DNA from: Porphyromonas sp. COT-290 OH3588
GTDB lineage: Bacteria; Bacteroidota; Bacteroidia; Bacteroidales; Porphyromonadaceae
Direction: 5' to 3'
Assembly (NCBI RefSeq): GCF_000769075.1
Contig: NZ_JRFC01000014.1
Location: 64,023-128,022, forward strand
Length of the DNA stretch: 64,000 nucleotides
The position numbers and the translations under genes were made by a program. The notes under the pieces are model-generated. The model had not been told where the DNA came from. It ran no database searches and saw only the letters and a program-made list of their open reading frames with translations. Shown here piece by piece: positions 5,236 to 55,591 of this stretch (the first letter of the stretch is position 1; the number at the start of each line of letters is the position of its first letter).

Positions 5236-5560
5236 ATTTATACAATTGCAGTGATTTTTGTATGCCGATCACAATACTTTGGTGCACCCAAGCTCGCAAA
5301 GCCCAAACTGCATATTTGCCCTCTACAAGGCTCTACACTGCGTCAAAGCTTGTTTTGGCTCTCGGCTCCAAACACACAAAAATAACCGCCTAAAACAAGC
5401 CTAATATAACACGCTAGTAATTAATATTATAATAAATACACAGGGGTCATTCTCGGAGCTTGTGCGACATTTTTGAGATTTTCTTCCCATCAATCCTCCA
5501 ACATTGGTGGACACATCGCCAAAGGTTAGTCCATCAATCTGACAAAATCTTCCCATCAAT
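5236..5560 (-). repeat. RPT element copy R1 (upstream of tpx)
   Basis: Read on the minus strand, four units begin at 5560, 5538, 5516 and 5494, exactly 22 bp apart. Units 1 and 4 both read ATTGATGGGAAG. Unit 2 (ATTGATGGAC) and unit 3 (GTCCACCAAT) form the dyad. Downstream boxes are GTTTTAGGC at 5396 (+98), AGGGCAAATAT around 5317 (+177) and GTATAAAT near 5243 (+251). The same architecture recurs at 21765-22087, 33570-33820, 37160-37482 and 55269-55591. There is no coding potential. Confidence 0.85.
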
Positions 5561-5766
5561 CTCTAAGGTAGCTACATCGTCCTTTAGGAATGCAGCCTTC
5601 ATTCGTCTAAATTCGGGCATAATAGATTCATATATCTTAACACAAAAAGAATAGAATCGTAGCCCTAATTCCGAAGCCTTATAGCAGCATATAGAACTAC
5701 ACTACCCTCGGTACGACAGTTTGTACAAGATAATTTAGTTAGTGCTTTGAGCTCAATATCTAGGTA
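5561..5766. other. Intergenic spacer between RPT copy R1 and the cupin operon
   Basis: I see no gene, RNA or clear hairpin here. The short frame that crosses it (5460-5654) runs through the RPT units and is not credible as a protein. The segment separates the divergent tpx and cupin genes. Confidence 0.6.
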
Positions 5767-5784
5767 CTGTAACCGATGTTACAG
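5767..5784. promoter_or_regulatory. FNR/CRP-type palindrome, HcpR-like operator
   Basis: CTGTAACCGATGTTACAG has perfect 7-bp arms around CGAT. Its core fits GTAACnnnnGTTAC, the motif I recall as described for HcpR, a CRP/FNR-family regulator of nitrosative stress genes. Its centre (5775.5) is about 41-43 bp upstream of the start site expected from the -7 element at 5805-5812, the usual position for class II activation. The downstream operon encodes a cupin and a DUF438/hemerythrin-like/PAS protein, which fits a redox or NO response. Regulator identity is inferred. Confidence 0.55.
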
Positions 5785-5804
5785 AGTAAGATAGAGCTAG
5801 TAGT

Positions 5805-5812
5805 TACTTTTG
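5805..5812 (+). promoter_or_regulatory. -7 promoter element of the cupin-DUF438 operon
   Basis: TACTTTTG matches the Bacteroidetes -7 consensus TAnnTTTG and lies 40 bp upstream of the cupin ATG. No good -33 TTTG is visible, which fits a promoter that depends on an activator bound at the palindrome just upstream. Confidence 0.55.
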
Positions 5813-5852: not shown

Positions 5853-6137
5853 ATGCTAGGTAATAAATTATCACAGACAGGCCGCCTCATCGATAACAAA
5901 GAGCTCATGCTCGTTCATCTGCAGCTAGAGGCTGGGGGCAGTGTGCCAGCTCACGACCACGTAGGTCAGGAAGTATTTTTCACCGTAGTCAAGGGAATAG
6001 CCGAGGTTACGCTCAACCAAACGGAGAAGCACAGACTTACCCCGGGCGAAGTCTTGCACTTCGCTGGTGAAGCCTCCGTAAGTGTCTATGCCGTGGAGGA
6101 TGTAGACTTTTTCGTGTATCTCATCAACCGTCAGTAA
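5853..6137 (+). CDS. Small cupin-domain protein
   Basis: This 94-residue protein is a single cupin barrel. Motif 1 is visible as PAHDHVGQEVFFTVVKG, with two His and a Glu in the usual metal-binding arrangement, and the second motif region as LTPGEVLHFAGEASVSVYA. Proteins of this size usually bind a metal or small ligand and have no predictable reaction. It ends 3 bp before the DUF438 gene, so the two form an operon under the palindrome and -7 element upstream. Co-occurrence with a DUF438/PAS sensor suggests a role in redox or nitrosative stress. That role is inferred from context. Confidence 0.85.
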   Translation: MLGNKLSQTGRLIDNKELMLVHLQLEAGGSVPAHDHVGQEVFFTVVKGIAEVTLNQTEKHRLTPGEVLHFAGEASVSVYAVEDVDFFVYLINRQ

Positions 6138-10967: not shown

Positions 10968-11213
10968 ACAAAACCTGCCAAGTCGTGCTACTTAGGCCAC
11001 TTTGCCCGAGGCTACTCGGGCAGCCAAACAGGGCTATGGGAGAGTAGCAGATTGGTCAATATCAACAAATAAAACTTATATTTACGAGCCTAAAATTGGA
11101 CTAAGTAGTACGAGAAGGCTTAGCAAAGCGACTCCCCCCTCTATAGCTCCTTAGATTCGAATACATCACTTAATAGTAAGCGTTCATTTTCACAGAAATC
11201 ATCGTTCAAAAGA

Positions 11214-12698
11214 ATGAAAACATCCTTATTTTTCTCGGGGATCTTGGCCTCCTTGTTAGTACTGATATCTTCGTGTCAAAAAGATAGCCTAGACACTACT
11301 AGAAAGCTAGAGCTAGACACTGAGCCAGTCGTGCACCTCGAGGCTGGCGATAGCGAGAAGATTATCACCGTCAGAGCAACCCACAGAGAATGGACAGCGG
11401 AGGCTTACGCCACTTGGCTTACAGTACGCAAAATCGGGAATAACCTCGTCATCAATGCCGAGAGCAACGAAACCCTTGAGCCTAGACAAGCTAAAATCAA
11501 GGTTTTCTCCGCCGACATCACCCAAACACTAGAGGTCAAGCAGGCTGGCTACCCAACACTCTTGGTCGAAACGGACCCTGCAGAGGTCATTTTTGAGAAG
11601 AATGCCAGCACCATAAGCATTAGGCTGAAAACGAATGCAAAGAACTGGAGTATCAGCAATACCGCTAGCTGGATTACCGTGACCAGCGACCCAGAGAGTA
11701 GTATCGTATCCATCAAAGTCGAGGAAAACCGAACTAAGGAAATCCGCACAGCTCACCTAACTGTGCATAGCGGAAGGCTCAAACATACGATTTTGGTCAA
11801 GCAGAGAGGTCTACTCCACTTCTTCTTGCCGTATAACGAGTGGGGACAAAACTTCTCCAACATCCGAAGTCTGGAGCTAGCCCGCAATAGTAGGCTCAAG
11901 GCCTCCCCAAATCCCAACCGCAGCCCTCGCATTCCCGACTACACCTTCAGCACTACAAGTACGGCTTTCCCCGAGGTTAAATACGAGTTTGTGGACTATG
12001 GTAGTCGTACTCTCTACGCCACAACGCTTATCGGAGATGCAGACATTGTGCGCAGCGATGCCTTCCACGAGTATCTCATCAGCGAGGGATTTGAACGTGT
12101 TAGCTCACCCAACCAGACCAGCCAGCTCGAGTTCGTAAACCGAGCCCACAAGACGCAGCTCTACATCTATGCTATTAGAGATGGACAGAGTCAGCAAGTC
12201 AGAGGAGTCGTTTTCTGTAGGCCTCTACATGAGCAACCAGAGCCAATGCCTACCCTCGAGCACTTAGAGCTAGGTATAACTCGCCATGGCGAGGCTACGG
12301 AGGCCGAGGTCGAGCAGTGGGAGCAAACAAACAAAGGGGCTTTCGATCAGGAGTTTTCCAATATCATAGGAACCCCCTTCTTCTTCGTTCCAGAGCCATT
12401 CTACGGCAGAGGCTACTTCTATCGTAGTGGGGCAAAGAGATCTAGGCTGCTCGATAGCTATGTCCATTTATATACCCGACACACACTTGGCATCTATCGC
12501 TTCGGTGGCATGGACTATCTGACCAACGAGTTTAGGCAGCTCCTAGAGCGTGAGGGCTTTGTCTTCTCTCACTTTAGCCCTCATGCTAGAGCATATCTCT
12601 ACCAACATCAAGGGAAGCGATTGGCACTAGCCATTAGATCTATGGAGATCGGTCGCTACCGTATGCTCCGCATCAACATCAATCCGCTCACACCTTAG
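11214..12698 (+). CDS. BACON-domain lipoprotein with duplicated unknown C-terminal domain
   Basis: A signal peptide ends in the lipobox LVLISSC (Cys21). Two BACON-type beta-sandwich domains follow at about 35-115 (EWTAEAYATWLTVRKIGNN ... LEVKQAGY) and 118-200 (NWSISNTASWITVTSDP ... ILVKQRG). Each carries the W-x-S/T ... WITV and terminal VxQ-G signature. The remaining 290 residues are not a family I know. They seem to contain the same unit twice, around 280-345 (FHEYLISEGFERV ... LYIYAIRDG) and 440-494 (FRQLLEREGFVF ... LALAIRSME). It is the first gene of an operon with a secreted subtilase and a PorV-like barrel, so a surface role linked to that protease is likely. BACON domains often bind mucin or carbohydrate. 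Confidence 0.8.
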   Translation: MKTSLFFSGILASLLVLISSCQKDSLDTTRKLELDTEPVVHLEAGDSEKIITVRATHREWTAEAYATWLTVRKIGNNLVINAESNETLEPRQAKIKVFSADITQTLEVKQAGYPTLLVETDPAEVIFEKNASTISIRLKTNAKNWSISNTASWITVTSDPESSIVSIKVEENRTKEIRTAHLTVHSGRLKHTILVKQRGLLHFFLPYNEWGQNFSNIRSLELARNSRLKASPNPNRSPRIPDYTFSTTSTAFPEVKYEFVDYGSRTLYATTLIGDADIVRSDAFHEYLISEGFERVSSPNQTSQLEFVNRAHKTQLYIYAIRDGQSQQVRGVVFCRPLHEQPEPMPTLEHLELGITRHGEATEAEVEQWEQTNKGAFDQEFSNIIGTPFFFVPEPFYGRGYFYRSGAKRSRLLDSYVHLYTRHTLGIYRFGGMDYLTNEFRQLLEREGFVFSHFSPHARAYLYQHQGKRLALAIRSMEIGRYRMLRININPLTP

Positions 12699-12743
12699 AG
12701 CAGTATCTAGATGATACATACAATAGAATAGACAGATCAGACA

Positions 12744-15491
12744 ATGAATAAAAGACATATTATCCTAGCTCTAGCAGGAGCAACTATACTAGTGGGCTGT
12801 CATCAAAGTGACTTGGAGCTTCCCAATCAGCAGGCTCCACAGCTGAGCAGCCAGCAGGCCTCTACATCAGATGGCACACTCCCCCACATGATACGAGTAC
12901 GCTTCTCTGCCGAGGGCGGAGCACAGATCGAGCAGCTTCTAAGTGCCGAAGGCTCGAAACAGGTCGATCCACAAACAATCCCCCTACTCAAAAAGATTAA
13001 AGCTACTCGACTAAGCCGTGTATTTCCATACGCCGGCAAGTATGAGGAGCGCACTCGACGTGAGGGGCTACATCTATGGTACGACATCACACTAGACGAA
13101 ACGCTATCTCCCAGAGAAATCCGAGAAGCTCGCCAGAGAGCGATGGAGATTGCTCTTCACTCTTCAGAGGTGACCTCGGCCGAGCTCGTGTACACAGCCA
13201 AGCTCCCTCAGACCAAAATCACTTACCTTGATCCAAGCCAATGGGGAGGCCTAAGAGCCGAGGGCGGAATGCCGATGGACGACCCGCTTCTCCCTAAGCA
13301 ATGGCATTATCATAATGACGGTAGCCTAATTCGCTCTAAAGCAGGCGCCGACATCAACTTATTCAAAGCTTGGGAGCAAGAAGTTGGTCGTCCGGAGGTA
13401 ATCGTTTCAATCGTTGATGGAGGTATAGACTACACTCACGAGGATCTCAAGGACAATATGTACATCAACCACAAAGAGCTTACTGGCGTTAGGGGCAAAG
13501 ACGACGACAATAATGGGCTGGTAGATGATGTCCATGGCTTCAACTTCGTCTTCATGAGGCCGCAAATCAATCCGCATGAGCACGGCACCCACGTAGCTGG
13601 TACGGTGGCAGCACGCAACAATAATGGAGTCGGCGTGGCAGGAGTAGCCGGCGGCAATGGCTCAGTAGGCTCTGGTATCAAACTGATGTCTTGCCAAGCC
13701 TTCGATATCAACCCAGCCACTGGTCGTGATATAGCGAACGGCTTCGAGGCTGCAATCAAATATGGAGCGGACAATGGTGCTGTCATCAGCCAAAACTCAT
13801 GGGGAGTGCCAGATGCCCAGACCCTACCAAGATCCTACAAAGATGCGATCGACTACTTCATCAAATACGCAGGGTGCGACAATGAAGGGAACCAATTACC
13901 GGCTTCTCCTATGAAGGGCGGGGTGCTGATCTTTGCAGCAGGCAATAGTGGACTAGACTATCGAGCATACCCAGCCGCCTACTCCGAGGTAGTTTCTGTT
14001 TCGGCGATGAGTACCAACTTTGGAGTTGCCCCATATTCTAATAGGGGCGACTGGGTAAATCTCATGGCACCGGGTGGTGATGTATATGAGCACAACGGGC
14101 AAGTGCTTAGCACACTCCCTAGCAATAGTTACGGCTATCAGCAGGGAACCTCTATGGCCTGCCCGCACGTTTCGGGCATCGCAGCTCTTATGGTGTCTAA
14201 GTTCGGCAAGCAAGGGTTTACCAATACGGAGCTCAAACAGCGCTTGCTTACAGCTATCTCATCTGTAGATATCAATAAGATGAACCCTGAGTATGTTGGT
14301 CGTCTTGGGCTAGGCTATATAGATGCAGAGATTGCTCTCTCCGGATCGGGCGGAGGTGGCGCAGCGCCTCAACTTGCCCAGTGGCAGCCCATCGTAGCCA
14401 CCCACACAGGCCTAGAGCTATCTTGGTCTGTTTCTGCCGATACAGACGATCAGAAGGCCCTCGGCTACAATCTCTACATCTCCAAGAGTGAGCTAAACAA
14501 GAGCAACCTCGACCAAGCAACCAAGGTAGTAGTAACTAGTGTAGGCTCTGCCGTCGGGGAGAAAGTCTATCACAAGCTAGAGCGACTAGACTCGAATACT
14601 CAGTACTTTTTCGCCTTACAGCCCTACGACAGATGGCACAACATGGGCGAGCTATCTTTTACCTCAGCCAAGACTCTAGCCAACCGCCGCCCAGTAGTAG
14701 ATATCCCTCAGCAAAGGCCCATACGTTTGTCGGAAAAAGAGTCCTACGATTTGGTTATTCCAGTTTCCGATCCTGACGGACATCAGTGGAAAGCCAAATT
14801 TGTTGGCTCTACCTACGGAGCATCTATGGAACCAATCAAAGATGGGATACGCCTGCATCTGCTCGGGCAGAGCCCCGTGGGCAAGTACCAGATCACGATT
14901 AAAGTAACAGACGAGCTGGGGGCTAGCGAAGAGGTTATCTTGCCATTCGAGATCTACCAAAACAGAGCTCCTAAGCAGCTGTGCCCTCTGGTCAAGCACT
15001 ATCTGCCCCTCGGCAGAGAAGCCCTCAAGTTTGATCTGAAGAACGTCTTCGTAGACACGGATAATGAGGTACTCACCTACAAGGTTCGTGTGATCGGCAC
15101 ATCGACGGTGGAGGCTAGTATCTCCGAAGGTGTACTATCCATCATAGGCAAACAAATTGGCCTGAGTGGGCTAGAAGTATCAGCTACCGATCCCAAAGGA
15201 TTAACGACAAGGGCAACGCTAGAGATAGAGGTGGTCAAGGACGAACTTGTACACCTAGTCTATCCCATACCAGCATCTACGACGCTCAACGTTCGCTTAG
15301 CCGATCGTCTACGTGCGGCCGTACTACGCATCTTTACCCAAGTGGGGCAGCAAATGCTAAGCAAGTCTGTCACGCTAGAGCAAGGCGAGCAAGTGGCTCA
15401 GCTAGATATCCGCTCACTCACTACGGGCACCTATATCCTACAAGTAGAGGCTGAGGGCAGAACCTTCCGTCAGTCATTTATCAAACGCTAA
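12744..15491 (+). CDS. Secreted subtilisin-like (S8) protease with T9SS C-terminal sorting domain
   Basis: The 915-residue protein has a signal ending in the lipobox ILVGC (Cys19), a pro-region to about 210, and an S8 catalytic domain with Asp225 (VSIVDGGIDYTHEDL), His280 (EHGTHVAGT), the oxyanion Asn in FAAGNSG and Ser470 (GTSMACPHVSG). Two or three beta-sandwich modules resembling fibronectin and cadherin folds follow. The last 75 residues (LVYPIPASTTLNVRL ... LTTGTYILQVEAEG ... FIKR) have the layout of a type A sorting domain for type IX secretion. A lipobox together with a T9SS domain is unusual. The gene lies between a BACON lipoprotein and a PorV-like barrel, 45 bp and 15 bp away. Confidence 0.9.
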   Translation: MNKRHIILALAGATILVGCHQSDLELPNQQAPQLSSQQASTSDGTLPHMIRVRFSAEGGAQIEQLLSAEGSKQVDPQTIPLLKKIKATRLSRVFPYAGKYEERTRREGLHLWYDITLDETLSPREIREARQRAMEIALHSSEVTSAELVYTAKLPQTKITYLDPSQWGGLRAEGGMPMDDPLLPKQWHYHNDGSLIRSKAGADINLFKAWEQEVGRPEVIVSIVDGGIDYTHEDLKDNMYINHKELTGVRGKDDDNNGLVDDVHGFNFVFMRPQINPHEHGTHVAGTVAARNNNGVGVAGVAGGNGSVGSGIKLMSCQAFDINPATGRDIANGFEAAIKYGADNGAVISQNSWGVPDAQTLPRSYKDAIDYFIKYAGCDNEGNQLPASPMKGGVLIFAAGNSGLDYRAYPAAYSEVVSVSAMSTNFGVAPYSNRGDWVNLMAPGGDVYEHNGQVLSTLPSNSYGYQQGTSMACPHVSGIAALMVSKFGKQGFTNTELKQRLLTAISSVDINKMNPEYVGRLGLGYIDAEIALSGSGGGGAAPQLAQWQPIVATHTGLELSWSVSADTDDQKALGYNLYISKSELNKSNLDQATKVVVTSVGSAVGEKVYHKLERLDSNTQYFFALQPYDRWHNMGELSFTSAKTLANRRPVVDIPQQRPIRLSEKESYDLVIPVSDPDGHQWKAKFVGSTYGASMEPIKDGIRLHLLGQSPVGKYQITIKVTDELGASEEVILPFEIYQNRAPKQLCPLVKHYLPLGREALKFDLKNVFVDTDNEVLTYKVRVIGTSTVEASISEGVLSIIGKQIGLSGLEVSATDPKGLTTRATLEIEVVKDELVHLVYPIPASTTLNVRLADRLRAAVLRIFTQVGQQMLSKSVTLEQGEQVAQLDIRSLTTGTYILQVEAEGRTFRQSFIKR

Positions 15492-15506
15492 CTATCATTC
15501 ATTGAT

Positions 15507-16433: not shown

Positions 16434-16464
16434 TACACATCGCATCATAACCAAGGCAGAGCCA

Positions 16465-16512: not shown

Positions 16513-16537
16513 TCCCAACAACTAGGTCTTGAGCTAT

Positions 16538-18847: not shown

Positions 18848-18860
18848 CTTATGGGTTTTT

Positions 18861-21449: not shown

Positions 21450-21764
21450 TACCACACCTCGATTAAGCCTATACCGAGATCTTACCAGAGATGCCAGCAA
21501 GGTCTTTTATATACCTATACATAGCCATATCTATCAACACTCCGTTACATTACTTTGGATATATATACACCTGCACTCTAAGATTATTCAATGCCCAAGC
21601 AATATCACATTAACAATTTAGAAAACAACAAGATAAACAACCTAAAACAAAAACTCTATCACACCTTAATCGCCACCATCAAAATTGTTAAAAACAATCA
21701 AAACACAATCTAGAATAAACACCTCTATATCCATCGCATAGACCTTTTTGCTTCAGACGGCAAA
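21450..21764. other. AT-rich intergenic DNA between RPT copy R2 and the DUF1573 promoter
   Basis: Short frames here have poor codon patterns and no homology I recognise. One 241-codon frame on the plus strand ends at 21621 but runs antisense through both the tRNA and DUF1573, so I reject it. I see no RNA gene. Confidence 0.6.
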
Positions 21765-22087
21765 ATTTATATTTTAGACCAGTTTCTAAGATATTACTGG
21801 GACAATTTCTGGTGTGAGGTCGCCATTAGGCAAGGCCCGTATTGCCCCCTAGCAGGCTCAGGATCGAGCTTAACCACGTTTTGGAGCTACATACCAGAGC
21901 ACCAAAAACAGCAGCCTAAAAGGCACGCATCACAACAAGTCCAAAATCAAGCAGATAAAACCCCAAAATCAAGGCGAAGCACACATTTGCAGCACACTAC
22001 TTGGATTTTCTTCCCATCAATCTATACAAATTGATGGATACATCTCGACAAATGAGCCCTACAATCCTCCGCAATCAGTCCTTCAAT
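21765..22087 (-). repeat. RPT element copy R2 (upstream of DUF1573)
   Basis: On the minus strand units start at 22087 (ATTGAAGGACTG), 22065 (ATTGTAGGGCTC), 22043 (ATGTATCCATCAAT, inverted polarity) and 22021 (ATTGATGGGAAGAAAA), each 22 bp apart. Later boxes are CTTTTAGGC at 21922 (+99), TAGGGGGCAATAC near 21843 (+178) and AAATATAAAT from 21774 (+247). This copy has the weakest unit 2/3 dyad. Confidence 0.85.
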
Positions 22088-22594
22088 CTTCTTCGGAGTA
22101 CTCCGCGATCCAAACCAACCGCCCCTCCTAGCCTCCTAGATTTACCCACAGAGCACTCACACTTATTAACAAAAATACATCACTATCGCCCTCAAACATC
22201 AGCCCAATTCTACAGTAAAACATCACCCTAAGCGGCCTCTCGAAGCTATCCTTTGCGACACTTGCCCCCTCAATGTATGCAACTACCTAGCCCAAATCCA
22301 ATAGGCTCTACTAGGGACGATAGGGCGTGAAGGCCACAAGGAGACTATGCGACTTAAAGAGATAGCCCCACACGGGTCTCATCAGTGCCTGAGGTGCACA
22401 TCACAGACAGTCCTCTAGGCACACCCTTAACGCCTTGAGCTTAGCCAGTTATGACAGCCCTAGAGGGACCTGATAAGCGAAATACACCTACTACCGTACC
22501 TTCAACTCTGTATCCCCGTTGTGCAATTATAAAGAAATGACGAACTTTGGGGTTAAATTCTTTTGATTTAACACCTAGACTGAAGAAACTCAAG
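22088..22594. other. Intergenic DNA upstream of the LysM protein gene
   Basis: No gene, tRNA or strong hairpin is visible. A frame beginning with TTG at 22547 is the upstream extension of the LysM gene, but the ATG at 22595 gives the better N-terminus. The promoter of the LysM-moxR-bat genes probably lies here, but I cannot place it with confidence. Confidence 0.5.
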
Positions 22595-33064: not shown

Positions 33065-33569
33065 GAGCTCTCTTACTTTATAGACGAATGTGTATGTCGT
33101 ATGAAGAGGGTGTGCCCATAGTATACAAACTGCTCAAGCTATTTGCGACATTTGTTCCGTACGGATTTCGTTGTCGGCTTTAGGCCACTTACTCTAGTAT
33201 ATCCCTCATCAGCTTCGACCTAAGCGCCCTCTAGCGCACGATACTTGGCCTTGGGGTAGCTGGAGTAAACGCCGCTCTGCCCTCGGCCCACACAATTCCT
33301 GCATTTTACACATTCTGAAGCATCTAAAAGAGGCTGTGCTGAAATTTAATTTTGGCACAGCCCTTTTCTTATTTTTGTCGAAGGACAGCGATAGACTATT
33401 TCTATTAATCCACGTTACCCTAGATCAGATTAAGCTCAACGGTACAGACACTGGTAGGCTCTGAAGCAGATCATTCGTCATCTCTTCCGTTAAAATACGT
33501 AAAAATACCTCTCTAAAATTGAGGCTCTCAGGGGGAGCTCCCAACAAAATTAATAGAGCATCTGCCTAA
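33065..33569. other. Intergenic DNA after the bat/PAP2 genes, with one terminator
   Basis: I see no gene. The only clear structure is the terminator at 33327-33373, preceded by cattctgaagcatctaaaag at 33311. Nearly the same prefix and terminator recur after the LRR gene at 36918-36977. Confidence 0.6.
33327..33373 (+). terminator. Terminator downstream of the PAP2 gene
   Basis: GGCTGTGC and GCACAGCC form the stem core, with a 15-nt AT-rich loop and CTTTTCTTATTTTT downstream. It lies 263 bp past the PAP2 stop, farther than usual. Confidence 0.75.
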
Positions 33570-33820
33570 ATTGAAGGGAAGACTTTTGCCGATTGGTGGA
33601 CTCATGTGTCGTACTATGTCCACCAATCCCAAGCAATTGATGGGAAGAAATACCGAAACGTATCGCTCATGGAGATACATCAACTAGGAAGATAAATATA
33701 TCTACCTAAATAACAATCAGTTAAAAACACACGATATAGAGGACTTTTTTGATTGGCTAAGGGGATAAGAGCGGACACAAGGTCAAACGCAATATAGCGC
33801 CCTCTAGGGGACAAATATGA
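33570..33820 (+). repeat. RPT element copy R3 (upstream of the LRR surface protein)
   Basis: Units start at 33570 (ATTGAAGGGAAG), 33592 (ATTGGTGGACTC), 33614 (CTATGTCCACCAAT, inverted) and 33636 (ATTGATGGGAAGAAAT), each 22 bp apart. ATTGGTGGAC at 33592 and GTCCACCAAT at 33618 are a perfect 10-bp inverted pair with a 16-nt loop, the best dyad of the family. The +97 box is degenerate (GATATAGAGGAC). The +177 box is clear (CTCTAGGGGACAAATAT, AAATAT at 33813). The +247 AAATATAAAT box is absent, so this copy is incomplete at its 3' end. Confidence 0.8.
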
Positions 33821-33948
33821 GATCTAACCAATAAAGGCTCTTCATCTAGGGTGCTTGGCAGAAAGGAGCTCAAATAGCCCTCGAAGTGTTAATTTTTCAC
33901 AATAGAATTAGCCAATCGCCATACGTACGGATATCATCGTCTGTAGAG

Positions 33949-36977: not shown

Positions 36978-37159
36978 ATGAATAATTAAATAGCAACTTA
37001 TAATTCTACTGAATAATTAGATATTCTCAAGCGAGGGGAAAGAATACCTCTCGGGTATCGCCCTTTCATCTTTTTGGTTAAGAAACGTAAATGAACCACA
37101 CAGACAATTAGGCTAGCCGATTAGTCTGCCGTAGAGGATCAATAGGGCTTTTATGGAAA
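36978..37159. other. Spacer between the LRR terminator and RPT copy R4
   Basis: This is AT-rich intergenic DNA. I see no gene or structured element in it. Confidence 0.5.
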
Positions 37160-37482
37160 ATTGAAGGACTAATTGTGTAAGATTGAAGGACTAGCCTACC
37201 AAGATATGTCCTACAATCACCAAGGATTGATGGGAAGAAATAACCCACAAGGCGACACGAATATATAAAACCCACCAGACAAACACGATAAAACTTTAAT
37301 TATTAGCCACTTAAAAAATCGCGTTTTAGGCAGCTGTTTTCATTCGACTGCAAGTGGATTGCCCAAACAAGGTCGAGCTATGTCTGGCGCCTCCTAGGGG
37401 GCAAATACACGGTCTAATCCTTTTTGCCCTTCCAAACAAAATCGCACCATCAACATTCTGAAAAGTGGACGAAAATATAAAT
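37160..37482 (+). repeat. RPT element copy R4 (upstream of the M23 peptidase)
   Basis: Units start at 37160 (ATTGAAGGACTA), 37182 (ATTGAAGGACTA), 37204 (ATATGTCCTACAAT, inverted) and 37226 (ATTGATGGGAAGAAAT), each 22 bp apart. Boxes are GTTTTAGGCAG at 37323 (+97), CTCCTAGGGGGCAAATAC with AAATAC at 37403 (+177), and AAATATAAAT at 37473 (+247). Distances to R5 are identical within 1 bp. This is the best-preserved copy together with R5. Confidence 0.88.
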
Positions 37483-37568
37483 CCTCTAGGGAGCCGAGAA
37501 TAAGCCAAACCTCTGGGGTGAGGTCGCCATTTGAAATAAAATTCTTTAACATGAATTACTAAAAATTA

Positions 37569-44763: not shown

Positions 44764-44782
44764 AATGTGATGAAGCTATTAT

Positions 44783-45166: not shown

Positions 45167-45296
45167 AATTCTTCATTTGAGTTTTGTCGGCTCGACTATC
45201 GTGCTAGAGCCATTGATTGCAATCCTCCACAAACTTACACAAAAAAAGGATAATCTTCTGGCCTATACATTCATAATGATTAGGGATACACTTAAG

Positions 45297-45331
45297 ACAA
45301 AAAGAGGACGACACGTCTGTGTCGTCCTCTT
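45297..45331 (-). terminator. Terminator of tRNA-Val
   Basis: On the minus strand AAGAGGACGACAC and GTGTCGTCCTCTT are complementary around AGAC and are followed by TTTTGTC. It begins 4 bp past the tRNA. Confidence 0.85.
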
Positions 45332-45334
45332 GAT

Positions 45335-45412
45335 TGGTGGGCCCAATAGGATTCGAACCTATGACCCTCTGCTTGTAAGGCAGATGCTCTAAACCAGCTG
45401 AGCTATAGGCCC
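45335..45412 (-). tRNA. tRNA-Val (anticodon TAC)
   Basis: On the minus strand GGGCCTA pairs with TGGGCCC in the acceptor stem, followed by discriminator A and an encoded CCA. The D arm is AGCTCAGCTGGTTTAGAGC. The anticodon stem TCTGC/GCAGA encloses CTTACAA (anticodon TAC). The T arm is ATAGG TTCGAAT CCTAT. Confidence 0.96.
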
Positions 45413-45440
45413 AATCATCGCCTTTTGTCCTTCGACGATG

Positions 45441-45470
45441 CAAAGGTATAATCTTTTTCTATATCCACAA
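45441..45470 (-). promoter_or_regulatory. Promoter of tRNA-Val
   Basis: On the minus strand TTG (45468-45470) and TACCTTTG (45441-45448) are separated by 19 nt. The start site should fall about 20 nt before the tRNA. Confidence 0.65.
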
Positions 45471-45547
45471 TACCCCAAGTGTATTTTCCGAGAAATTTAT
45501 TGAGCGACGAAACTACATTCTGTCGGAATAGGCTGAACACCTTGGGC

Positions 45548-46660: not shown

Positions 46661-46667
46661 AGTATTT

Positions 46668-47933: not shown

Positions 47934-49300
47934 TCCAATTCCCTTTTTAGAGTTAGAACCTGCTCTCGGAAGCAGTCACCTCGATGTTCGTAATTGTTGA
48001 ATAGATCAAAGCTAGCACAAGCTGGCGAAAGCAGTACCGTATCCCCTTCTTGAGCGAACGAATGACTTATTTTAATCGCCTCCTCCATACTGTGAGCATC
48101 AGCAATGAGATCAATCCGCCCGTCGAAGGTCTGATGCAACTTAGCCGAATCTGTCGTTAAGAAAACTAGAGCACGAGCACCAGAGAGCACGAGGTCTGCT
48201 ATTTCCTCGTAGTTATTACCCTTGTCCGTCCCCCCGAGGATCAGCACATAGGGTGTAGTCATCGTACGCAAGGCGTAGTAAGTCGAGTTGATATTCGTAG
48301 CCTTGGAGTCGTTGATGTAGCGCACGCCCTCTACCACCGCCACCTTCTCTAGTCGATGTGGCACATTGACAAAGTCATGTAGAGCTGTTCGCAAGGCTTC
48401 CTCTGGGACGCCTAAGAAGAGTGCAGCACAAGAAGCTGCCATAGCATTCTGCAGGTTATGCGGACCTTGAAGAGCAAGAGAAGAGATCGGGTACTCAAAG
48501 CTCCGGCCAGAGAAGTGAACACGCATCAGATGATCGTCGGACTTATCTGCTGCTGCCCCTGCCTGCTCGTAAGTAACAAAAGGCAATAGCTGCATGGGCA
48601 TAGGCTGATTGGCCAACACATACTGAGTGATGAACTCGTCCTCGCCCCAATAGATGAAAGCGTCTTGCGATGTCTGATTCTGGAGAATGCGCATCTTGGC
48701 TAGAGCATACTGCTCCATACTATTATTATAGCGGTCTAAATGATCCGGGGTGATGTTCATCAGCAAGGCAACATGGACATGGAAGTCGTACATATCATCG
48801 AGTTGGAAGCTACTAAGTTCAATAACGAAGTAGTCGGGTTGCTCGTCTGTACACACTTGGCGTGCTAGGCTAAAACCAACATTGCCAGCCAAGCCAACAC
48901 TATAGCCAGCGGTTTCTAGGATATGATACAGCCACATAGTAGTCGTGGTCTTGCCATTACTCCCTGTGATCCCGATTGTCCGTCCCTTGGTGTACCGCCC
49001 TGCGAACTCAATCTCCGAAACAACGGGGATATTTGCCTCGCATATCGCCTTGATAATAGGCGCTGTGTGTGGGATACCCGGCGACTTGATGACCTCTCGA
49101 GCCTGCAAGATCACCTCCCGAGTATGCTGTCTTTCTTCATAGGGGATACTATGCTCCTCAAGCTCCTTCCTATACTTATCGGAGATCTGTCCGTAGTCCG
49201 AAACAAAAACAGAGATCCCTCGACTCTTACACAGAAGTGCTGCTCCTACACCACTCTCTCCAGCCCCAAGGACTACGATATCATAGTTGCAAGCGTCCAT
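47924..49300 (-). CDS. murD: UDP-N-acetylmuramoyl-alanine:D-glutamate ligase
   Basis: The 458-residue Mur ligase has an N-terminal Rossmann-like domain (IVVLGAGESGVGAALLCKSRG), ATP-binding GITGSNGKTTTT, ELSSFQLDDM, MNITPDHLDRY and a C-terminal domain with INDSKATN. It adds D-glutamate to UDP-MurNAc-alanine in the cytoplasm. It is the first gene of the three-gene operon with ftsW and murG. mraY and murE, which usually precede it, are not upstream; instead there is a promoter and the GAPDH terminator. Confidence 0.97.
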   Translation of the reverse strand: MDACNYDIVVLGAGESGVGAALLCKSRGISVFVSDYGQISDKYRKELEEHSIPYEERQHTREVILQAREVIKSPGIPHTAPIIKAICEANIPVVSEIEFAGRYTKGRTIGITGSNGKTTTTMWLYHILETAGYSVGLAGNVGFSLARQVCTDEQPDYFVIELSSFQLDDMYDFHVHVALLMNITPDHLDRYNNSMEQYALAKMRILQNQTSQDAFIYWGEDEFITQYVLANQPMPMQLLPFVTYEQAGAAADKSDDHLMRVHFSGRSFEYPISSLALQGPHNLQNAMAASCAALFLGVPEEALRTALHDFVNVPHRLEKVAVVEGVRYINDSKATNINSTYYALRTMTTPYVLILGGTDKGNNYEEIADLVLSGARALVFLTTDSAKLHQTFDGRIDLIADAHSMEEAIKISHSFAQEGDTVLLSPACASFDLFNNYEHRGDCFREQVLTLKRELECK

Positions 49301-49349
49301 ATTTACTTATGTTGATGAGATTTGCTTTATAGTCTGTGATTTTAACCCA

Positions 49350-49379
49350 CAATATTAGCAATTTTTATCCACCTTGCAA
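49350..49379 (-). promoter_or_regulatory. Putative promoter of murD-ftsW-murG
   Basis: On the minus strand TTG (49377-49379), a 19-nt spacer and TAATATTG (49350-49357) resemble the -33/-7 arrangement with one mismatch in the -7 box. The leader would be about 45 nt. Confidence 0.45.
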
Positions 49380-49500
49380 TGCATCTATTAGGGATATCGA
49401 CATAAGATGTCGCGGTGCGCATCTCTCCTCACTGGAGGCCTAGTGATATCCAAGAGGCACAATCTCTCTGATGCGTTGAGAAGTGTACAGACCAAACTAT

Positions 49501-49546
49501 TAAAAAGAAGAGTTCTCGAGCGGCAAACCGCCCGAGAACTCTTCTT
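49501..49546 (-). terminator. Terminator of the GAPDH gene
   Basis: On the minus strand AGAAGAGTTCTCGGGCGG and CCGCTCGAGAACTCTTCT form a long stem with loop TTTG, followed by TTTTTA. It starts 20 bp after the gap stop codon. Confidence 0.9.
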
Positions 49547-49566
49547 CGTTATGTATCAGCCTAAGA

Positions 49567-50601
<1,035 letters not shown>

Positions 50602-50613
50602 TTATTAATCTCT

Positions 50614-50629
50614 TAACCTTTTAAGGTTA
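50614..50629. promoter_or_regulatory. Inverted repeat in the GAPDH leader (possible operator)
   Basis: TAACCTTTTAAGGTTA has 7-bp arms around TT and lies 43 bp upstream of the gap start. It could be an operator or a small leader hairpin. Nothing else supports a specific regulator. Confidence 0.3.
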
Positions 50630-50673
50630 GGTTGCAGAACTTATATGAAAGTGAACCGCCACCCAAACCGCCA

Positions 50674-50681
50674 CAAATTTA
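50674..50681 (-). promoter_or_regulatory. Possible -7 element of the GAPDH gene
   Basis: On the minus strand TAAATTTG fits TAnnTTTG, with TTTG at 50704-50707 22 nt further upstream, slightly long for a -33 box. The leader would be about 95 nt. Confidence 0.35.
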
Positions 50682-50712
50682 AGAATTTTAGTTTATATAG
50701 CCTCAAACTATA

Positions 50713-51267
50713 TCAATCCTTTTTCTCAAACTCCGTGCTAATATCTTCCCCTTGCGGCCCAAACCATGAGGCATACATCTGATAGTTATTAGCGATACGC
50801 TCATTGAGATTGCGACTCTGCTCTGGCTCAACCTTCTTAACAAACTTGGCTGGTACACCCGCCCATAGCTCGTATGGACCGATCTCGGTCTTAGCCAGTA
50901 CCACACTCCCAGCAGCCACGATAGCACCCTCGCCAACTACGGCATCGTCCATCACGATCGACCCCATACCTATAAGCGCTAGATCTCGAATCTTACAGCC
51001 GTGTAGGGTCACGTTGTGCCCTACCGACACATTGTCACCAATCTCTATGGTAGACTTCTGATACAGCGTATGTAGCACAGAGCCGTCCTGTATATTGACG
51101 TTGTTGCCAATGCGGATTGAGTTTACATCCCCTCGCAGTACCGTATTGAACCAAACACTGCATCCGTCGCCCATCACGACATCTCCCACTACCGTCGCAT
51201 TGACAGCAAGGAAGCACTTCTCCCCTATCACGGGGCTAATACCTTTAACGCTCTGTATATAAGCCAT
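50713..51267 (-). CDS. Gamma-class carbonic anhydrase / left-handed beta-helix protein
   Basis: The protein has 184 residues from the ATG at 51267 (MAYIQSVKGISPVIG). Hexapeptide repeats build a left-handed beta-helix, and the three zinc-ligand histidines of gamma carbonic anhydrases are present: His66 (GSVLHT), His84 (VSVGHN) and His89 (VTLHGC). The family hydrates CO2 or acts as a CoA-linked acyltransferase-like protein. A longer frame reaching 51492 would add 75 implausible residues and overlap the next gene, so the shorter start is chosen. The start overlaps the small membrane protein gene by 23 bp. Confidence 0.9.
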   Translation of the reverse strand: MAYIQSVKGISPVIGEKCFLAVNATVVGDVVMGDGCSVWFNTVLRGDVNSIRIGNNVNIQDGSVLHTLYQKSTIEIGDNVSVGHNVTLHGCKIRDLALIGMGSIVMDDAVVGEGAIVAAGSVVLAKTEIGPYELWAGVPAKFVKKVEPEQSRNLNERIANNYQMYASWFGPQGEDISTEFEKKD

Positions 51268-51529
51268 CGTATTGTTCCAATTGTTTTCTCGTTTCTTTGC
51301 CCCTCTTAATCCTACGCATGCTACTATATATATCCCAAGGTAGCAGGTAAATCGTGAAGCGAGTGGCCATAAATAGACTATCTCTGAGCCACCCCTCTGT
51401 ATCCTCGAAAGGCTGGTAGTCAAAGAACAGCGAGTTAATCGCCAAAATAGTGACAAACATAATGGGAATGCTCCACAGTATGTGTCTCCCAATCATCTTG
51501 GCGAGGCTGATATAGTCCTTTCTATCCAT
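51245..51529 (-). CDS. Small membrane protein of unknown function
   Basis: The 94-residue protein from the ATG at 51529 has two hydrophobic segments, ILWSIPIMFVTILAINSLFF and a weaker FMATRFTIYLLPWDIYS, and a basic tail (RRIKRGKETRKQ). I do not recognise a family. It is translationally coupled to the gamma carbonic anhydrase by a 23-bp overlap, and the M24 peptidase gene ends 43 bp upstream. It is probably expressed as part of that run of minus-strand genes. Confidence 0.65.
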   Translation of the reverse strand: MDRKDYISLAKMIGRHILWSIPIMFVTILAINSLFFDYQPFEDTEGWLRDSLFMATRFTIYLLPWDIYSSMRRIKRGKETRKQLEQYDGLYTER

Positions 51530-51572
51530 TGACACTTAACCTCTCTCTATATATAACCTTTTTTGGCCTCAG

Positions 51573-53357
51573 TTAGATTTTGGCAGTCTTCTCTCTGAGC
51601 CAAGCAGCCTCGTCTGCAGTGAGGTGTGGGCACAGGGTCTGATAGACGTGCTCTTGGTAGTCGTTGTACCACGCCAGCTCTACATCTGTCAGCAAGGACT
51701 TATCCACTAGCTGATTGTCCATATAGCAGAGCGTTACGGTCTCGAACCCAAAGAAGCGCCCAAACTCCGTTTCTTCCTTGAGCTCAGTCACCACAAGATT
51801 CTCGATACGAATGCCATACTCACCCGAGCGATATAGCCCCGGCTCGTTGCTTGTGATCATACCTATCTCTAGCGGTGTGGGATTAACCTCGGTGCGGATA
51901 TTCTGCGGTCCCTCGTGTACGTTGAGGAAGTAGCCTACGCCGTGGCCTGTACCATGCCCATAGTTAAGCCCACGATCCCACAGCGCCTTACGAGCGAGGA
52001 TATCGATCTGACTACCTCGTGTTCCCTCGGGGAAGCGGGCGAGAGCCACGCCAATATGCCCCTTGAGCACGAGCGTATAGTCCGTACGGATCTGGTCGCT
52101 TGGCTTACTGAGCGCTAGAGTACGGGTAATATCTGTCGTACCATCGAAGTATTGACCACCACTATCAAGCAGGAGGACCCCCTCACCCTTGATTGTATAT
52201 GAAGTCTTGGGCTCTGCCTTGTAGTGCACAATGGCACCATGACCTAGATAACCAGCGATCGTCCCAAAGCTATCGCCATAGAACTTCTCGCCTCGAGCTC
52301 TAAATTCATTGAGCTTGACTCCGAGGTCGTACTCACTGATGCTGCCACCGCTCTTGAGCAAATCCTCTAGCCAAATGTAGAAACGTGTAAGCGAAACCCC
52401 ATCACGCACCATCGCAGTCCTAAGGCCAGCTAGCTCCGTAGGCGTCTTGACGGCCTTGAGTGTCGTGAGGATAGATACACCCTCTACGATGCGGCAGTGC
52501 TTAGGGATATTTGTGTAGAGGCTGTGCGTGGTACGCTTGGTATCTACATATAGGCGAGTCTGGTCATCGAGCGCGGCGATGAAGGGATAAATCTGACCGT
52601 AGTCCTCTATGCGCACTCCGTTCTTCTCTAGTTCGGCACGCACCTCTGCATTAATCTTCTCTGGAAGTGTAAATAGCACGGCCTCACGATCACTAATGTA
52701 GCCGAAACCTACACCAACAGGATTGTACTCTACGTCGTAGCCACGGATATTGAAGACCCAAGCCAACTCGCAGAGCATAGTTACGATCGTAGCATTGGCG
52801 CCATTGGCCTTGAGGCGTTCATTAACGAGAGCGATGCGGTCGGCAGCTGTCTGCCCACTGTACGCAGCAGGCTGTAGGAACAGCTCCTTATTGGGAATAG
52901 CTGGGCGGTCGTGCCAGATACGCTCGAGCAGATCAATATCCAGACGATACTCAATGCCATAAACCTCTAGCTTGGCACGGCTATCCGAGGCCTCTGCCTC
53001 GCTCAGACAAGCACCGTCAGCCGCCACTACACTCCCTGCCGATAGACTCTTGGCGAGGAAGCCCTCGATAGAGGGCGTACCGGGCACGCCCATTTTCATG
53101 AGCTCGATAGATGAGCCCTCTAGCTCTTGGCCAGCCTGTAGGAAGTAGCGTGAGTCCGTCCATAGGTAAGCGCCCTCTAGGGTCACAAGCATGGTACCAG
53201 CGGAGCCACTAAAGCCACTGATCCAGCTACGCCCCGTCCATCTAAGAGGTGTATATTCACTCAAGTGTGCATCCGACGAAGGAATGATGTAGGCTGATAT
53301 ACCTTCTGCTTTCATGGCCTCCCTTAGGGCGGCAAGTCTATTCTGAATGGTGTTCAT
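51573..53357 (-). CDS. M24 family Xaa-Pro aminopeptidase
   Basis: The protein has 594 residues from the ATG at 53357 (MNTIQNRLAALREAMK). The N-terminal creatinase-like domains are followed by the pita-bread catalytic domain. The two-metal site is visible as LLLDSGGQYFDGTTDITRT (two Asp), GTGHGVGYFLNVHEGP (His), ITSNEPGLY (Glu) and GIRIENL (Glu). It removes an N-terminal residue in front of proline. There is no signal peptide, so it acts in the cytoplasm on imported peptides. A longer frame to 53489 overlaps the DUF4301 gene and is not needed. Confidence 0.92.
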   Translation of the reverse strand: MNTIQNRLAALREAMKAEGISAYIIPSSDAHLSEYTPLRWTGRSWISGFSGSAGTMLVTLEGAYLWTDSRYFLQAGQELEGSSIELMKMGVPGTPSIEGFLAKSLSAGSVVAADGACLSEAEASDSRAKLEVYGIEYRLDIDLLERIWHDRPAIPNKELFLQPAAYSGQTAADRIALVNERLKANGANATIVTMLCELAWVFNIRGYDVEYNPVGVGFGYISDREAVLFTLPEKINAEVRAELEKNGVRIEDYGQIYPFIAALDDQTRLYVDTKRTTHSLYTNIPKHCRIVEGVSILTTLKAVKTPTELAGLRTAMVRDGVSLTRFYIWLEDLLKSGGSISEYDLGVKLNEFRARGEKFYGDSFGTIAGYLGHGAIVHYKAEPKTSYTIKGEGVLLLDSGGQYFDGTTDITRTLALSKPSDQIRTDYTLVLKGHIGVALARFPEGTRGSQIDILARKALWDRGLNYGHGTGHGVGYFLNVHEGPQNIRTEVNPTPLEIGMITSNEPGLYRSGEYGIRIENLVVTELKEETEFGRFFGFETVTLCYMDNQLVDKSLLTDVELAWYNDYQEHVYQTLCPHLTADEAAWLREKTAKI

Positions 53358-53391
53358 TGTAAGTTCGTTTATTATTGTTTGTGTATTGTAC

Positions 53392-54936
53392 TTACTTGCT
53401 TTGATGCTCGGGGCGAAGCAGGTCATTGACCTCCTTAACTGGGTTGAAGGTTTCGATCGGCACCTCGACAAAGATTGTATTCCAGTCATGCATCGCTCCG
53501 TTCCACAATCCGGGGCGCTCTAGAGCCTTGAGCTCTCGGCCTCCTTGGCTCTTACTTGCGATGAATGCTGTCTTAGGGTTGATGTAGCGCTGCAGGTCGT
53601 ATCGATCGCCATGATGATTACGCAGAGAGCAAACCAAATCTACGGGATTGAAGTACCCCCCCGATTGTAGCATCGTGCGCTGATGCTCATCTGCCATATT
53701 GATCTGCGTGCTCTCTAGGATCTGGAGCGAGCTCGAGCCGTCGGCCTCTCTGATGATGAAAGGGCCACCACCCGGCTCGCCTTGGTTGCGTACCATGCCA
53801 CACACACGTATGGGGCGGTTGAGCTTGCCATAGAGCCAGTCTTGGAGCACCTTATCATCGTGCATATATTCCTCGGGGACAGATGTACAGAGCGTATTAT
53901 TAAGGAAAGAGGCAATCTCCATGAGGGCACTATGTGAGGCCTTACCTCGCTCAAGCTGGCGAAGGTAGTCGAAGATGCGTCGGCGCAGATAAATCAGGAT
54001 ACCACCAAGAAACTTCTTGTACATGACCGTAGCCCCCTTGAGATGATCGGGCACTACGTTGTCTATATTCTTGATGAAAACTATATCGGCATCTAGAGCC
54101 GCTAGATTGTTAATCAGCGCACCATGCCCTCCGGGACGGAAGAGTAGTCCTCCGTCCTCTCGGCGGAAGAGATTGCCCTCGGCATCGAGCGCCAGCGTGT
54201 CCGTGGCTGGCATCTGCTCGCTATAAGAGAGCTGATACGTCACGCCATACTTATCCTCGTAGTAGAGGCGAGCTCGCTCCAGATGACTCTCAAAAGCTGT
54301 ATGATGCTCTGGAGATACCGTGAAGTGTATGCGTACACGCCCCATGGCATCGCGAGCATAGAGCGCTCCCTCGACTAGATGCTCCTCTGCCGCCGTACTG
54401 CTCCCCTTGGGATAGGTGTGGAACTGAAGCAAACCCTTGGGCATCGCACCATAGTTGAGCCCGTTCTCCAGAAGCAGGTTCTTGACGATAGTCTTGTGTT
54501 CCCCCTGAGCGAGTAGCTTAGGGATACTCTTCCACGAGTTACGCAGACAGACCTCCCCTAGCCGATCGTAGAAGGCAAAGCTAGGTAAGTGGTCAAAAAA
54601 ACGCTGAACCTCTGGAGTACTCGGTTCGGCACTGTCGGAGTCTAAGAAAGCGTAGAGCGACTTAAACATACGGGAGGCAGCCCCGGAGGCTGGCACCATC
54701 TTACACACATTCGCTTTTTCATCACCAAGATAGTCCTCCCATGCCTGCATATAGCGAGCTTCTTCTTCTCGCTCTACACGCATAATGCCTCGCTCAAGTG
54801 AAGCGGATGCTAAAATGTGAAGATAAGGGAACCCCGAACGAATATCCTCCACTTGTCTAGTAGCCTCTTCTAGGCTAATGCCATGCTGGCTGAGTTGCTC
54901 CAAATCTGCGGAGCTAAACAATGCTTCTGCTATCAT
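53392..54936 (-). CDS. DUF4301 protein
   Basis: The 514-residue soluble protein shows the DUF4301 pattern: KMVPASGAASRMFKSLYAFL near 95, EEHLVEGALYARDAMGRVRIHFT, LLFRPGGHGALINNLAALDADIVFIKNIDNVVPD near 260-295, and GGPFIIREADGSSSLQILESTQIN near 400. The GGHGALI / DNVVPD section looks like a nucleotidyltransferase-type fold, as in sugar-nucleotide pyrophosphorylases, but the reaction is not established. It is common in Bacteroidetes and usually a single gene. The M24 peptidase gene follows after 34 bp. Confidence 0.85.
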   Translation of the reverse strand: MIAEALFSSADLEQLSQHGISLEEATRQVEDIRSGFPYLHILASASLERGIMRVEREEEARYMQAWEDYLGDEKANVCKMVPASGAASRMFKSLYAFLDSDSAEPSTPEVQRFFDHLPSFAFYDRLGEVCLRNSWKSIPKLLAQGEHKTIVKNLLLENGLNYGAMPKGLLQFHTYPKGSSTAAEEHLVEGALYARDAMGRVRIHFTVSPEHHTAFESHLERARLYYEDKYGVTYQLSYSEQMPATDTLALDAEGNLFRREDGGLLFRPGGHGALINNLAALDADIVFIKNIDNVVPDHLKGATVMYKKFLGGILIYLRRRIFDYLRQLERGKASHSALMEIASFLNNTLCTSVPEEYMHDDKVLQDWLYGKLNRPIRVCGMVRNQGEPGGGPFIIREADGSSSLQILESTQINMADEHQRTMLQSGGYFNPVDLVCSLRNHHGDRYDLQRYINPKTAFIASKSQGGRELKALERPGLWNGAMHDWNTIFVEVPIETFNPVKEVNDLLRPEHQSK

Positions 54937-55268
54937 CGAAAAATCTTCGCTGCATTACGAGCATCTGAGGTCTCTAATTATCAATAATGTTGATTGGAGG
55001 CTCAGACACTAGATTAAACGTATATATCTGCTTCGCACAAATTTAGACAAAATCCATCTAAAACACAGCGAACCGAGGCAACAGCCTCTCGGCAGCTGGC
55101 TCACTCCATAGCCAATTAGCTACACTACCCGAGTCTACCAATAGACAGATGCCAATTGGGCGGAGCCAACCAATTTCTTCTTTGAAGTTAAATATCGTAA
55201 ACAACCTATCATCGTTTTTGAGAAGAGAAGCAAAGCATTTTGGCGATTTGGTTAATCCTTTCGAAAAA
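54937..55268. other. Intergenic region upstream of the DUF4301 gene
   Basis: A possible -7 element for the minus-strand gene, TAAATTTG, lies at 55038-55045 without a good -33 box. No coding sequence or hairpin is clear. RPT copy R5 starts at 55269. Confidence 0.5.
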
Positions 55269-55591
55269 ATTGGTAGGAAAATCTTTGCGTATTGTAGGAC
55301 TAATTCGCCGAGATATGTCCTCTAATCTGAAAGGATTGATGGGAAGAAATGACTCTAAATGTGGCTTATTTTCAAAAACATAGCCAAGGATAAAAATTAA
55401 AAATCTGGAAATCAGAAGATTGAAAACCTCCGTTTTAGGCAGTTATTTTTGCACAGCTGGGGCTACGTACGCAAACGAAGGCAAACCTCGCCTAGAGCCT
55501 CCCAAGGGCCAAATACGAGGGCTGGCGTTTTTAGCCCCTCTTGAAGGCGTCATTCCCATCAACATTCTGAAATCTGAGCTAAAATATAAAT
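55269..55591 (+). repeat. RPT element copy R5 (upstream of the cas operon)
   Basis: Units start at 55269 (ATTGGTAGGAAA), 55291 (ATTGTAGGACTA), 55313 (ATATGTCCTCTAAT, inverted) and 55335 (ATTGATGGGAAGAAAT), each 22 bp apart. Boxes are GTTTTAGGCAG at 55432 (+97), CCCAAGGGCCAAATAC with AAATAC at 55511 (+176), and AAATATAAAT at 55582 (+247). R5 and R4 share catcaacattctgaaa just before the last box. A short frame inside the element (55420-55686) is not considered a gene. Confidence 0.88.

Follow-up and report, generated by a model that had tools for sequence, protein, structure and literature searches.

Evenly spaced multi-box intergenic elements in Porphyromonas sp. COT-290 OH3588 that may help organise the chromosome

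Five copies of an intergenic element, here numbered R1 to R5, lie in a stretch of 64,000 nucleotides from contig NZ_JRFC01000014.1 of Porphyromonas sp. COT-290 OH3588 (positions 64,023 to 128,022 of the forward strand), which is called the window throughout. Each combines an array of four 22-bp units with further boxes at a distance (Table 1). An initial annotation of the window had described a five-copy family, and all five copies were present at the positions and on the strands that it gave; the family itself, however, has about 148 copies in the genome. The extent first proposed covered the array and the boxes, but the full extents obtained with nhmmer place the 5' start about 100 bp earlier and take in an additional box. 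Counted from unit 4, the first 3' box was recovered at +97 to +99 as described, while the middle box, TAGGGGGCAAATAC, starts at +168 to +170 instead of +176 to +178; the latter offsets suit its CAAATAC end, and in the window copies the box starts at +169/+170. In R3, the first and the last 3' boxes are degenerate. Unit 4, ATTGATGGGAAGAAA, is exact in 5/5 window copies and gave eight matches in the window at up to three mismatches, compared to 1.5 expected from shuffles. R1 is located between a redoxin gene (4536-5141, minus strand) and a cupin gene (5853-6137, plus strand).

Table 1. Copies of the element and their parts in the window.
Feature	Positions	Strand	Basis or detail
Copy R1, full extent	5222..5665	-	nhmmer 282.8 bits
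R1 four-unit 22-bp array	5480..5560	-	unit 4 at 5480-5494
Copy R2, full extent	21750..22187	-	nhmmer 223.8 bits
R2 four-unit array	22007..22087	-	unit 4 at 22007-22021
Copy R3, first and last 3' boxes degenerate	33469..33901	+	nhmmer 214.4 bits, box search
R3 four-unit array	33570..33650	+	unit 4 at 33636-33650
Copy R4, full extent	37053..37485	+	nhmmer 279.4 bits
R4 four-unit array	37160..37240	+	unit 4 at 37226-37240
R4 3' boxes GTTTTAGGC (+97), TAGGGGGCAAATAC (+169), AAATATAAAT (+247)	37323..37482	+	sequence, offsets
Copy R5, full extent	55174..55604	+	nhmmer 290.0 bits
R5 four-unit array	55269..55349	+	unit 4 at 55335-55349

The analysed genome (G000) is a 2.29-Mb draft, in which a profile of the array gave at least 150 scored matches. 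Merging these by hand with the matches of another profile, made from the 3' scaffold, yielded about 148 places (at least 148). We retrieved 145 distinct copies, with array and scaffold together in 139. The alignment comprises 142 of them, leaving out loci L250, L236 and L242, the last of which is cut by a contig end; further subsets were 140 copies with an anchored unit 4, 138 in a unit scan, 124 in a promoter scan and 122/145 in gene contexts. From the genome of a sister species (G023), 53 copies were retrieved and 52 aligned. The profile search of this and other Porphyromonas genomes, which the initial annotation had suggested, thus found about 148 own copies, copies in one sister species and none in the other genomes searched. 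A further count came from the 15-mer of unit 4, which occurs 134 times genome-wide at up to one mismatch, compared to 0 occurrences of the backward control string.

The element is about 430 bp long and consists of a 5' box, four 22-bp units of which the third is inverted, an AT-rich box and three 3' boxes, all at near-fixed offsets. With unit 4 as the anchor (position 0), the 138 scanned copies had a unit core at exactly -66 in 128, at -44 in 110, inverted at -19 in 116 and at 0 in 138 cases, where 0.03 unit cores per position were expected; the third unit starts at -22, with its core at -19. Including the preceding G, the 16 bases of unit 4 are exact in 70/145 copies and one base off in 50/145. 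In the 140 anchored copies, the 5' box GTTAA..GTAAA lies at -149 to -147 in 120 of the 125 copies with a recognisable one (not found in 15) and the AT-rich box at +60/61 in 80 of 84 (not found in 56). Downstream, GTTTTAGG lies at +97 to +99 in 104 of 107 (33 not found), GAGCCTCCTAGGGGGCAAATAC at +160 to +162 in 122 of 130 (10 not found), ATCAACATTCTGAAA at +223 to +225 in 55 of 61 (79 not found) and TAAAATATAAAT at +245 to +247 in 78 of 88 (52 not found). The fixed box spacing claimed at the outset is seen genome-wide. A fifth, inverted unit-like site was present at +218 to +220 in 46/138 copies. Two other features proposed from the window hold with exceptions. The third unit is inverted in 127/140 copies, but direct in 2 and ambiguous in 11; the count of four units applies to nearly all copies, but a few have extra units or an array without scaffold. 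At two loci, L098 and L199, the array is doubled, although the doubling at L199 may be an assembly artefact, since N lies between its two arrays.

Along the chromosome, the copies are evenly spaced. The 122 within-contig gaps have a mean of 14.05 kb and a coefficient of variation (CV) of 0.52, with none below 3 kb and five below 5 kb. On the 11 long contigs, density is alike (one element per 12-18 kb), and only 4 of 113 gaps are shorter than 5 kb, compared to 32.9 expected from simulated sites (minimum in 2000 simulations, 19). Compared with actual intergenic sites upstream of genes, a null that was available for 344 kb of continuous sequence, the spacing was again more even than expected (CV 0.47, p = 0.0004-0.0016), with a deficit of gaps below 8 kb (p = 0.0007-0.0016) and, less clearly, below 5 kb (p = 0.02-0.07). 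In the sister genome, where only contigs with at least two copies were used and gaps were typed by hand, 19 gaps gave a CV of 0.35, and none was below 6 kb, compared to 6.6 expected. The longest gap measures 68 kb and has no family copy until its end. An integrative conjugative element (tyrosine integrase, MobC, TraG) at ~480,000-533,000 of contig C6 (L270-L273) fills much of this gap.

Sequence comparison of the 142 aligned own copies gave a mean identity of 0.86 over 89 box columns and of 0.28 over 78 spacer columns, the latter against 0.285 from column composition; this contrast is partly built in and exaggerated, because the columns were chosen by conservation (information content). A nearest-neighbour test against shuffled columns, which is independent of that choice, gave a median spacer identity of 0.44 compared to 0.42 in the column-shuffled null, and exceeded 0.6 in 8/142 copies. 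With boxes kept and spacers near the null, nearly all copies look old and unrelated. Furthermore, a full-length nhmmer scan of the 344 kb, which also serves as a check on the bias of finding copies by unit 4, recovered 24 elements, all above 187 bits, with the next match at 3.2 bits; decayed copies were not found in this sequence. The proposal that the element reflects constrained function rather than a recent transposition burst is supported by the randomised spacers, the conserved boxes, the 134/142 copies without a close relative and the absence of decayed copies in the 344 kb. As judged from these alignments, the elements look individually protected by selection.

A few copies depart from this picture. 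The best own pair shares 0.89 identity, and four own pairs exceed 0.8, of which two are direct neighbours on contig C23 and one on C19. The clearest young cluster comprises L050, L032, L049 and L033 (C23, 155-197 kb), which follow one another in alternating orientation with 0.74-0.89 mutual identity. Local gene conversion was considered and rejected: neighbours were slightly more alike (0.539 compared to 0.525), but the signal was gone without pairs above 0.7 (p = 0.11). Outside the 344 kb, partial copies exist, namely arrays without scaffold at L250 and L236 and a weak match at L218, and extra pieces adjoin full copies at L098, L099 and L199. The array at L250 (C38, ~8.9 kb) has about five units in a different arrangement, and that at L236 is at ~5.1 kb of C33. 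A search for a factor gene beside the isolated array at L250 led to FolB and HIRAN-domain genes on its two sides and to no clear factor.

The main rival to a maintained set of sites is an old transposon-derived family spaced by target immunity, i.e., a non-autonomous family (like miniature inverted-repeat transposable elements [MITEs], or with Tn7/Mu-type ends) that inserts upstream of genes. In such a family the boxes would be transposase sites, conserved since only intact copies spread. Ends of Tn7/Mu-type transposons carry repeated protein sites of ~22 bp at fixed spacing, and these transposons show target immunity. The element is like them in its ~22-bp units, of which four recall the Tn7 end sites, in their fixed spacing and in its even distribution, as target immunity would give. 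Partial copies, the four similar own pairs (three of them neighbours) and the turnover of positions between species also suit a transposon, as does the greater uniformity of the sister copies (mean identity of random pairs 0.70, compared to 0.60 in the own genome), which would be expected after a newer wave. However, no terminal inverted repeat was detected (best 12-bp match, mean 8.27 compared to 8.11 shuffled, n = 142; at least 10 matching positions in 11 compared to 6 copies), and no target duplication of 2-6 bp flanked the element at offsets of up to 25 bp from its ends (142 own copies, 48 sister copies); in that scan, excess matches were conserved element positions paired with each other. 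With both kinds of repeat not found, mobile ends were rejected as a candidate. Recent copies are few, 134/142 own copies have no close relative and nonetheless keep their boxes, and decayed copies are missing from the 344 kb. Mu_transpos_C was found in 0/26 genomes, a search in which the control genomes gave no match either. On balance, we regard a transposon origin as rather unlikely.

The initial annotation had compared the element with BrickBuilt, a minisatellite-bearing MITE of Porphyromonas gingivalis, and had pointed to differences. In the BrickBuilt study, 19 copies are given for ATCC 33277, each with 1 to 22.8 tandem 23-nt units without spacers and with IS5-type terminal repeats, e.g., GAGACCTTTGCA in BrickBuilt_4 and _5 (PMC4596501). 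Measured against that account, both are intergenic and dispersed, with short units of similar length between non-repetitive flanks, but the present element differs in its ~148 copies, its four 22-bp units with one inverted, its lack of terminal repeats and its even spacing, so that the distinction from BrickBuilt stands: neither the variable 23-nt array, nor the IS5-type ends, nor the copy number of 19 applies here. In the window, GAGACCTTTGCA had 4 matches at up to two mismatches compared to 5.4 expected, and none at an element end.

Other high-copy repeats differ as well. BOX elements are modular, with a variable number of boxB modules and an RNA structure, and repetitive extragenic palindromes (REPs) lie mostly 3' of genes. 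Unlike BOX, the element almost always has four units, is evenly spaced and lacks supported RNA pairing. High copy number and intergenic location are common to it and to the BOX, RUP and SPRITE repeats of Streptococcus pneumoniae (PMC3049150), and REP and BIME repeats likewise exceed 100 copies, lie outside genes and bind several proteins (PMC2817692). REPs as portrayed in the latter are short palindromes, in contrast to an element of ~430 bp that lies upstream of genes and is rare between convergent genes. Searches of plasmids and phages (one element as the query) and of viral contigs (one exact pattern) gave no match, no publication on the element was among those listed in literature searches, and the box sequence occurred in none of the articles searched for it. 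In one study, short repeats (3 to 31 bp) were left unannotated in its P. gingivalis genomes (PMC5771137).

Two replication or partition systems were also considered. A Rep_3 initiator gene was found in 0/26 genomes (the control matched in 2/14), and an iteron replication origin was rejected for want of such a gene. ParB_N matched once in G000 and once in G023, the number also seen in 22 of the 24 remaining genomes; a parS-like set serving an extra ParB was rejected, as no additional ParB paralogue was present.

Conserved boxes at fixed spacing could also belong to a transcribed structured RNA (a riboswitch, leader or small RNA). Pairing between units 2 and 3 is possible in 82% of cells, compared to 26-46% in slid alignments, and a full-length RNAalifold run proposed candidate pairs. 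However, the hairpin of units 2 and 3 showed no covariation in 30 copies, where 351/500 shuffles paired at least as well, and RNAalifold predicted 0 pairs in 55 scaffolds. At gathering scores, Rfam matched only two tRNAs in the window, and six element loci gave no match at E values up to 1. Promoter motifs are, in addition, depleted inside the element. Unit 3 is direct in two own copies and unit 2 inverted in 11/53 sister copies, which fits protein sites and not a hairpin. An RNA function was rejected for lack of covariation and of an Rfam match, and we consider it a remote explanation.

Gene contexts, which rest on simple open reading frame (ORF) calling and not on annotation, were available for 122 copies with both flanking ORFs: 54 are divergent, 63 tandem and 5 convergent, and at least one gene lies downstream of the element in 117/122. 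Within the 344 kb, 14/30 divergent, 10/204 tandem and 0/30 convergent regions carry an element. The sequence TAnnTTTG is the -7 promoter motif of Bacteroidetes. Inside the element, it occurred at 0.72 per kb on one strand and 0.49 on the other, compared to 1.26 and 1.13 outside (124 copies), and it peaked in the flanks on the strand reading away from the element, at 3.73 per kb (+340 to +420) and 3.39 per kb (-400 to -300). This suggests that the elements tend to sit upstream of neighbouring promoters.

Such a position, with promoter motifs just outside and facing away, is what a cis-regulatory module would show, for example the operator array of a global regulator over ~150-200 transcription units. 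Moreover, the same genes carry the element in both species beyond chance (upstream gene sides, 4/7 compared to 4/45, p = 0.007). Yet a regulon would not be expected to be evenly spaced, distances to the genes vary widely (medians ~170 bp), and in tandem contexts the elements point with the genes in 38 and against them in 25 cases, which is not significant (p = 0.13). Among the flanking ORFs, of which 100/151 usable references were scanned for function, the genes are functionally mixed, e.g., a gyrase/topoisomerase A subunit, a tRNA synthetase and an elongation-factor-type GTPase, and a regulon was set aside on this ground. We judge a regulatory module improbable.

The distribution of the family is narrow. 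The array model matched only G000 and G023 among 61 genomes and gave no match in 24 further species of the genus, some of whose genomes are incomplete, and the scaffold model likewise matched only these two among 40 genomes, with none in 23 other species of the genus. Under stricter filters, the scaffold model found in 295 Bacteroidales genomes the own copies and one marginal match (G134, E = 5e-4) taken as chance; G023 is absent from the matches of that search and was evidently not drawn. By one protein, G023 is the closest relative in the genus (94% identity, the next at 70%). Its copies have the same scaffold, and the inter-unit sequence is largely common to both species, but the units differ, with ATTAGTGCAGAGAAAT as unit 4 and GATGTGTACACACATC as unit 3. 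Unit 4 is of the sister type in 52/53 sister copies, one (L061) being of the own type, and of the own type in 140/145 own copies, with two (L252 and L253) of the sister type and three unclear. L252 lies at ~650.8 kb of C6 and L253 at ~26.4 kb of C4; on its right side, L252 has flanking sequence that matches the flank of a sister element. The switch of unit sequence points to a protein that reads the units and has changed in specificity.

We mapped 35 own flanks (off contig ends) into 370 kb of G023, and 20 had an element at the expected distance, 17 of them in the same orientation. At the other 15 no element lay at the matching sister place, although for one of these, an R1 flank, an element follows after 1.8 kb of extra DNA. 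The same 370 kb contained one array fragment and one 3' fragment, both on contig C44. Across species, elements with a common flank mostly resemble each other internally no more than random pairs do: right-flank pairs had a weak signal at the 3' end only (0.38 compared to 0.29, p = 0.0008), and cross-side pairs had an unexplained one at the 5' end (0.38 compared to 0.31, p = 0.003). Tracing orthologues of single copies was therefore abandoned, since copies at the same position in the two species are mostly unlike inside.

The order of genes differs greatly between the two sister species, and many of the elements coincide with breaks, as would be expected if they were recombination sites that shuffle the genome. 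The left and right flanks of many sister elements match two different own elements; in the window, which was compared with G023 at 1-40000 and 44001-64000, there are breaks at R2 and R4, and an inversion affects the gene beside R3. Two window breaks, however, have no element, R1 and R5 are kept (R5 is collinear with a copy on sister contig C5), and a neighbour is missing at 6/7 element regions compared to 9/17 other regions of at least 100 bp, numbers too few to tell. A breakpoint hotspot, strong in element-only data, was rejected because wider counts do not show an excess, and we think recombination sites a very unlikely explanation.

Even spacing, apparent selection and the lack of a match to the repeat families tested led us to propose that the element may help organise the chromosome. 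A distance of 22 bp corresponds to about two helical turns. With units at this spacing, in either orientation and without covariation, the data fit protein sites better than an RNA or a recent mobile element, and the even spacing together with the avoidance of convergent regions points to a role at the scale of the chromosome. The explanation we favour, though tentatively and with somewhat less than even confidence, is that the elements are compound protein-binding DNA sites that structure the chromosome and are kept as a set every ~14 kb. A sequence-specific protein would bind cooperatively to the units along one side of the helix, and a second factor or property would read the 3' scaffold. 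The evenly spaced complexes would lie in little-transcribed DNA and would structure the chromosome as domain anchors or as sites of condensation or segregation. A change of unit-binding specificity in the sister species would have been followed by a matching replacement of its copies, while the scaffold stayed. The more specific picture of a lattice of ~150 evenly spaced nucleoprotein sites in little-transcribed DNA, with a different unit in the sister species as if sites and protein had co-evolved, is a possibility that we hold with slightly greater reserve.

Several observations weigh against this proposal. No binding protein for the elements was identified, and the target immunity of a transposon can also yield even spacing. 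A gap of 30 kb coincides with two long convergent operons, so that part of the spacing reflects where upstream sites are available. The initial search by unit 4 favours copies in which this unit is intact. The partial copies outside the 344 kb and the extra pieces beside full copies also speak against a uniformly maintained set, as do the 15/35 own flanks lacking a sister element and the internal dissimilarity of elements with a common flank. The pairing of units 2 and 3 above the level of slid alignments is likewise unfavourable to protein sites.

Sites such as parS, matS and those of Noc are short single protein-bound motifs that are spread on the chromosome and maintained by selection. As chromosome-spread protein sites under selection, the elements would, if the proposed role is right, resemble them; they differ in being multi-box modules of ~430 bp that occur at similar density on all 11 long contigs. 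About 64 kb of the genome (148 x 430 bp, about 2.8%) belongs to a family on which the literature searches listed no publication. If the elements organise the chromosome, bacterial chromosome domains would be marked by discrete sites that can be counted and removed, and the unit switch between two close species would show, as an experiment of nature, how a DNA-binding protein and more than 50 of its sites change together. If they derive from a transposon, they would illustrate copies spaced evenly over a genome through target immunity, with boxes retained over a long time. The novelty rests on the combination of features and would be lower if the transposon explanation is true.

The comparison with the sister genome also revealed features of the window beside the element. 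A second dispersed repeat occupies 33104-33371 and 36910-36983, parts that lie ~3.5 kb apart and adjoin each other in the sister (C100:37167-37345 and C69:6925-7106); R3 and a leucine-rich-repeat gene separate them in the window, as if inserted into the repeat. The region 11167-20000 has 73% identity to sister contig C61, compared to 82-86% in neighbouring blocks, and its replacement or fast evolution is possible. A Cas3-like gene (55818-58145) adjoins R5, and at 63934-63972 short matches begin to sister repeats spaced ~67 bp, which are probably a CRISPR array.

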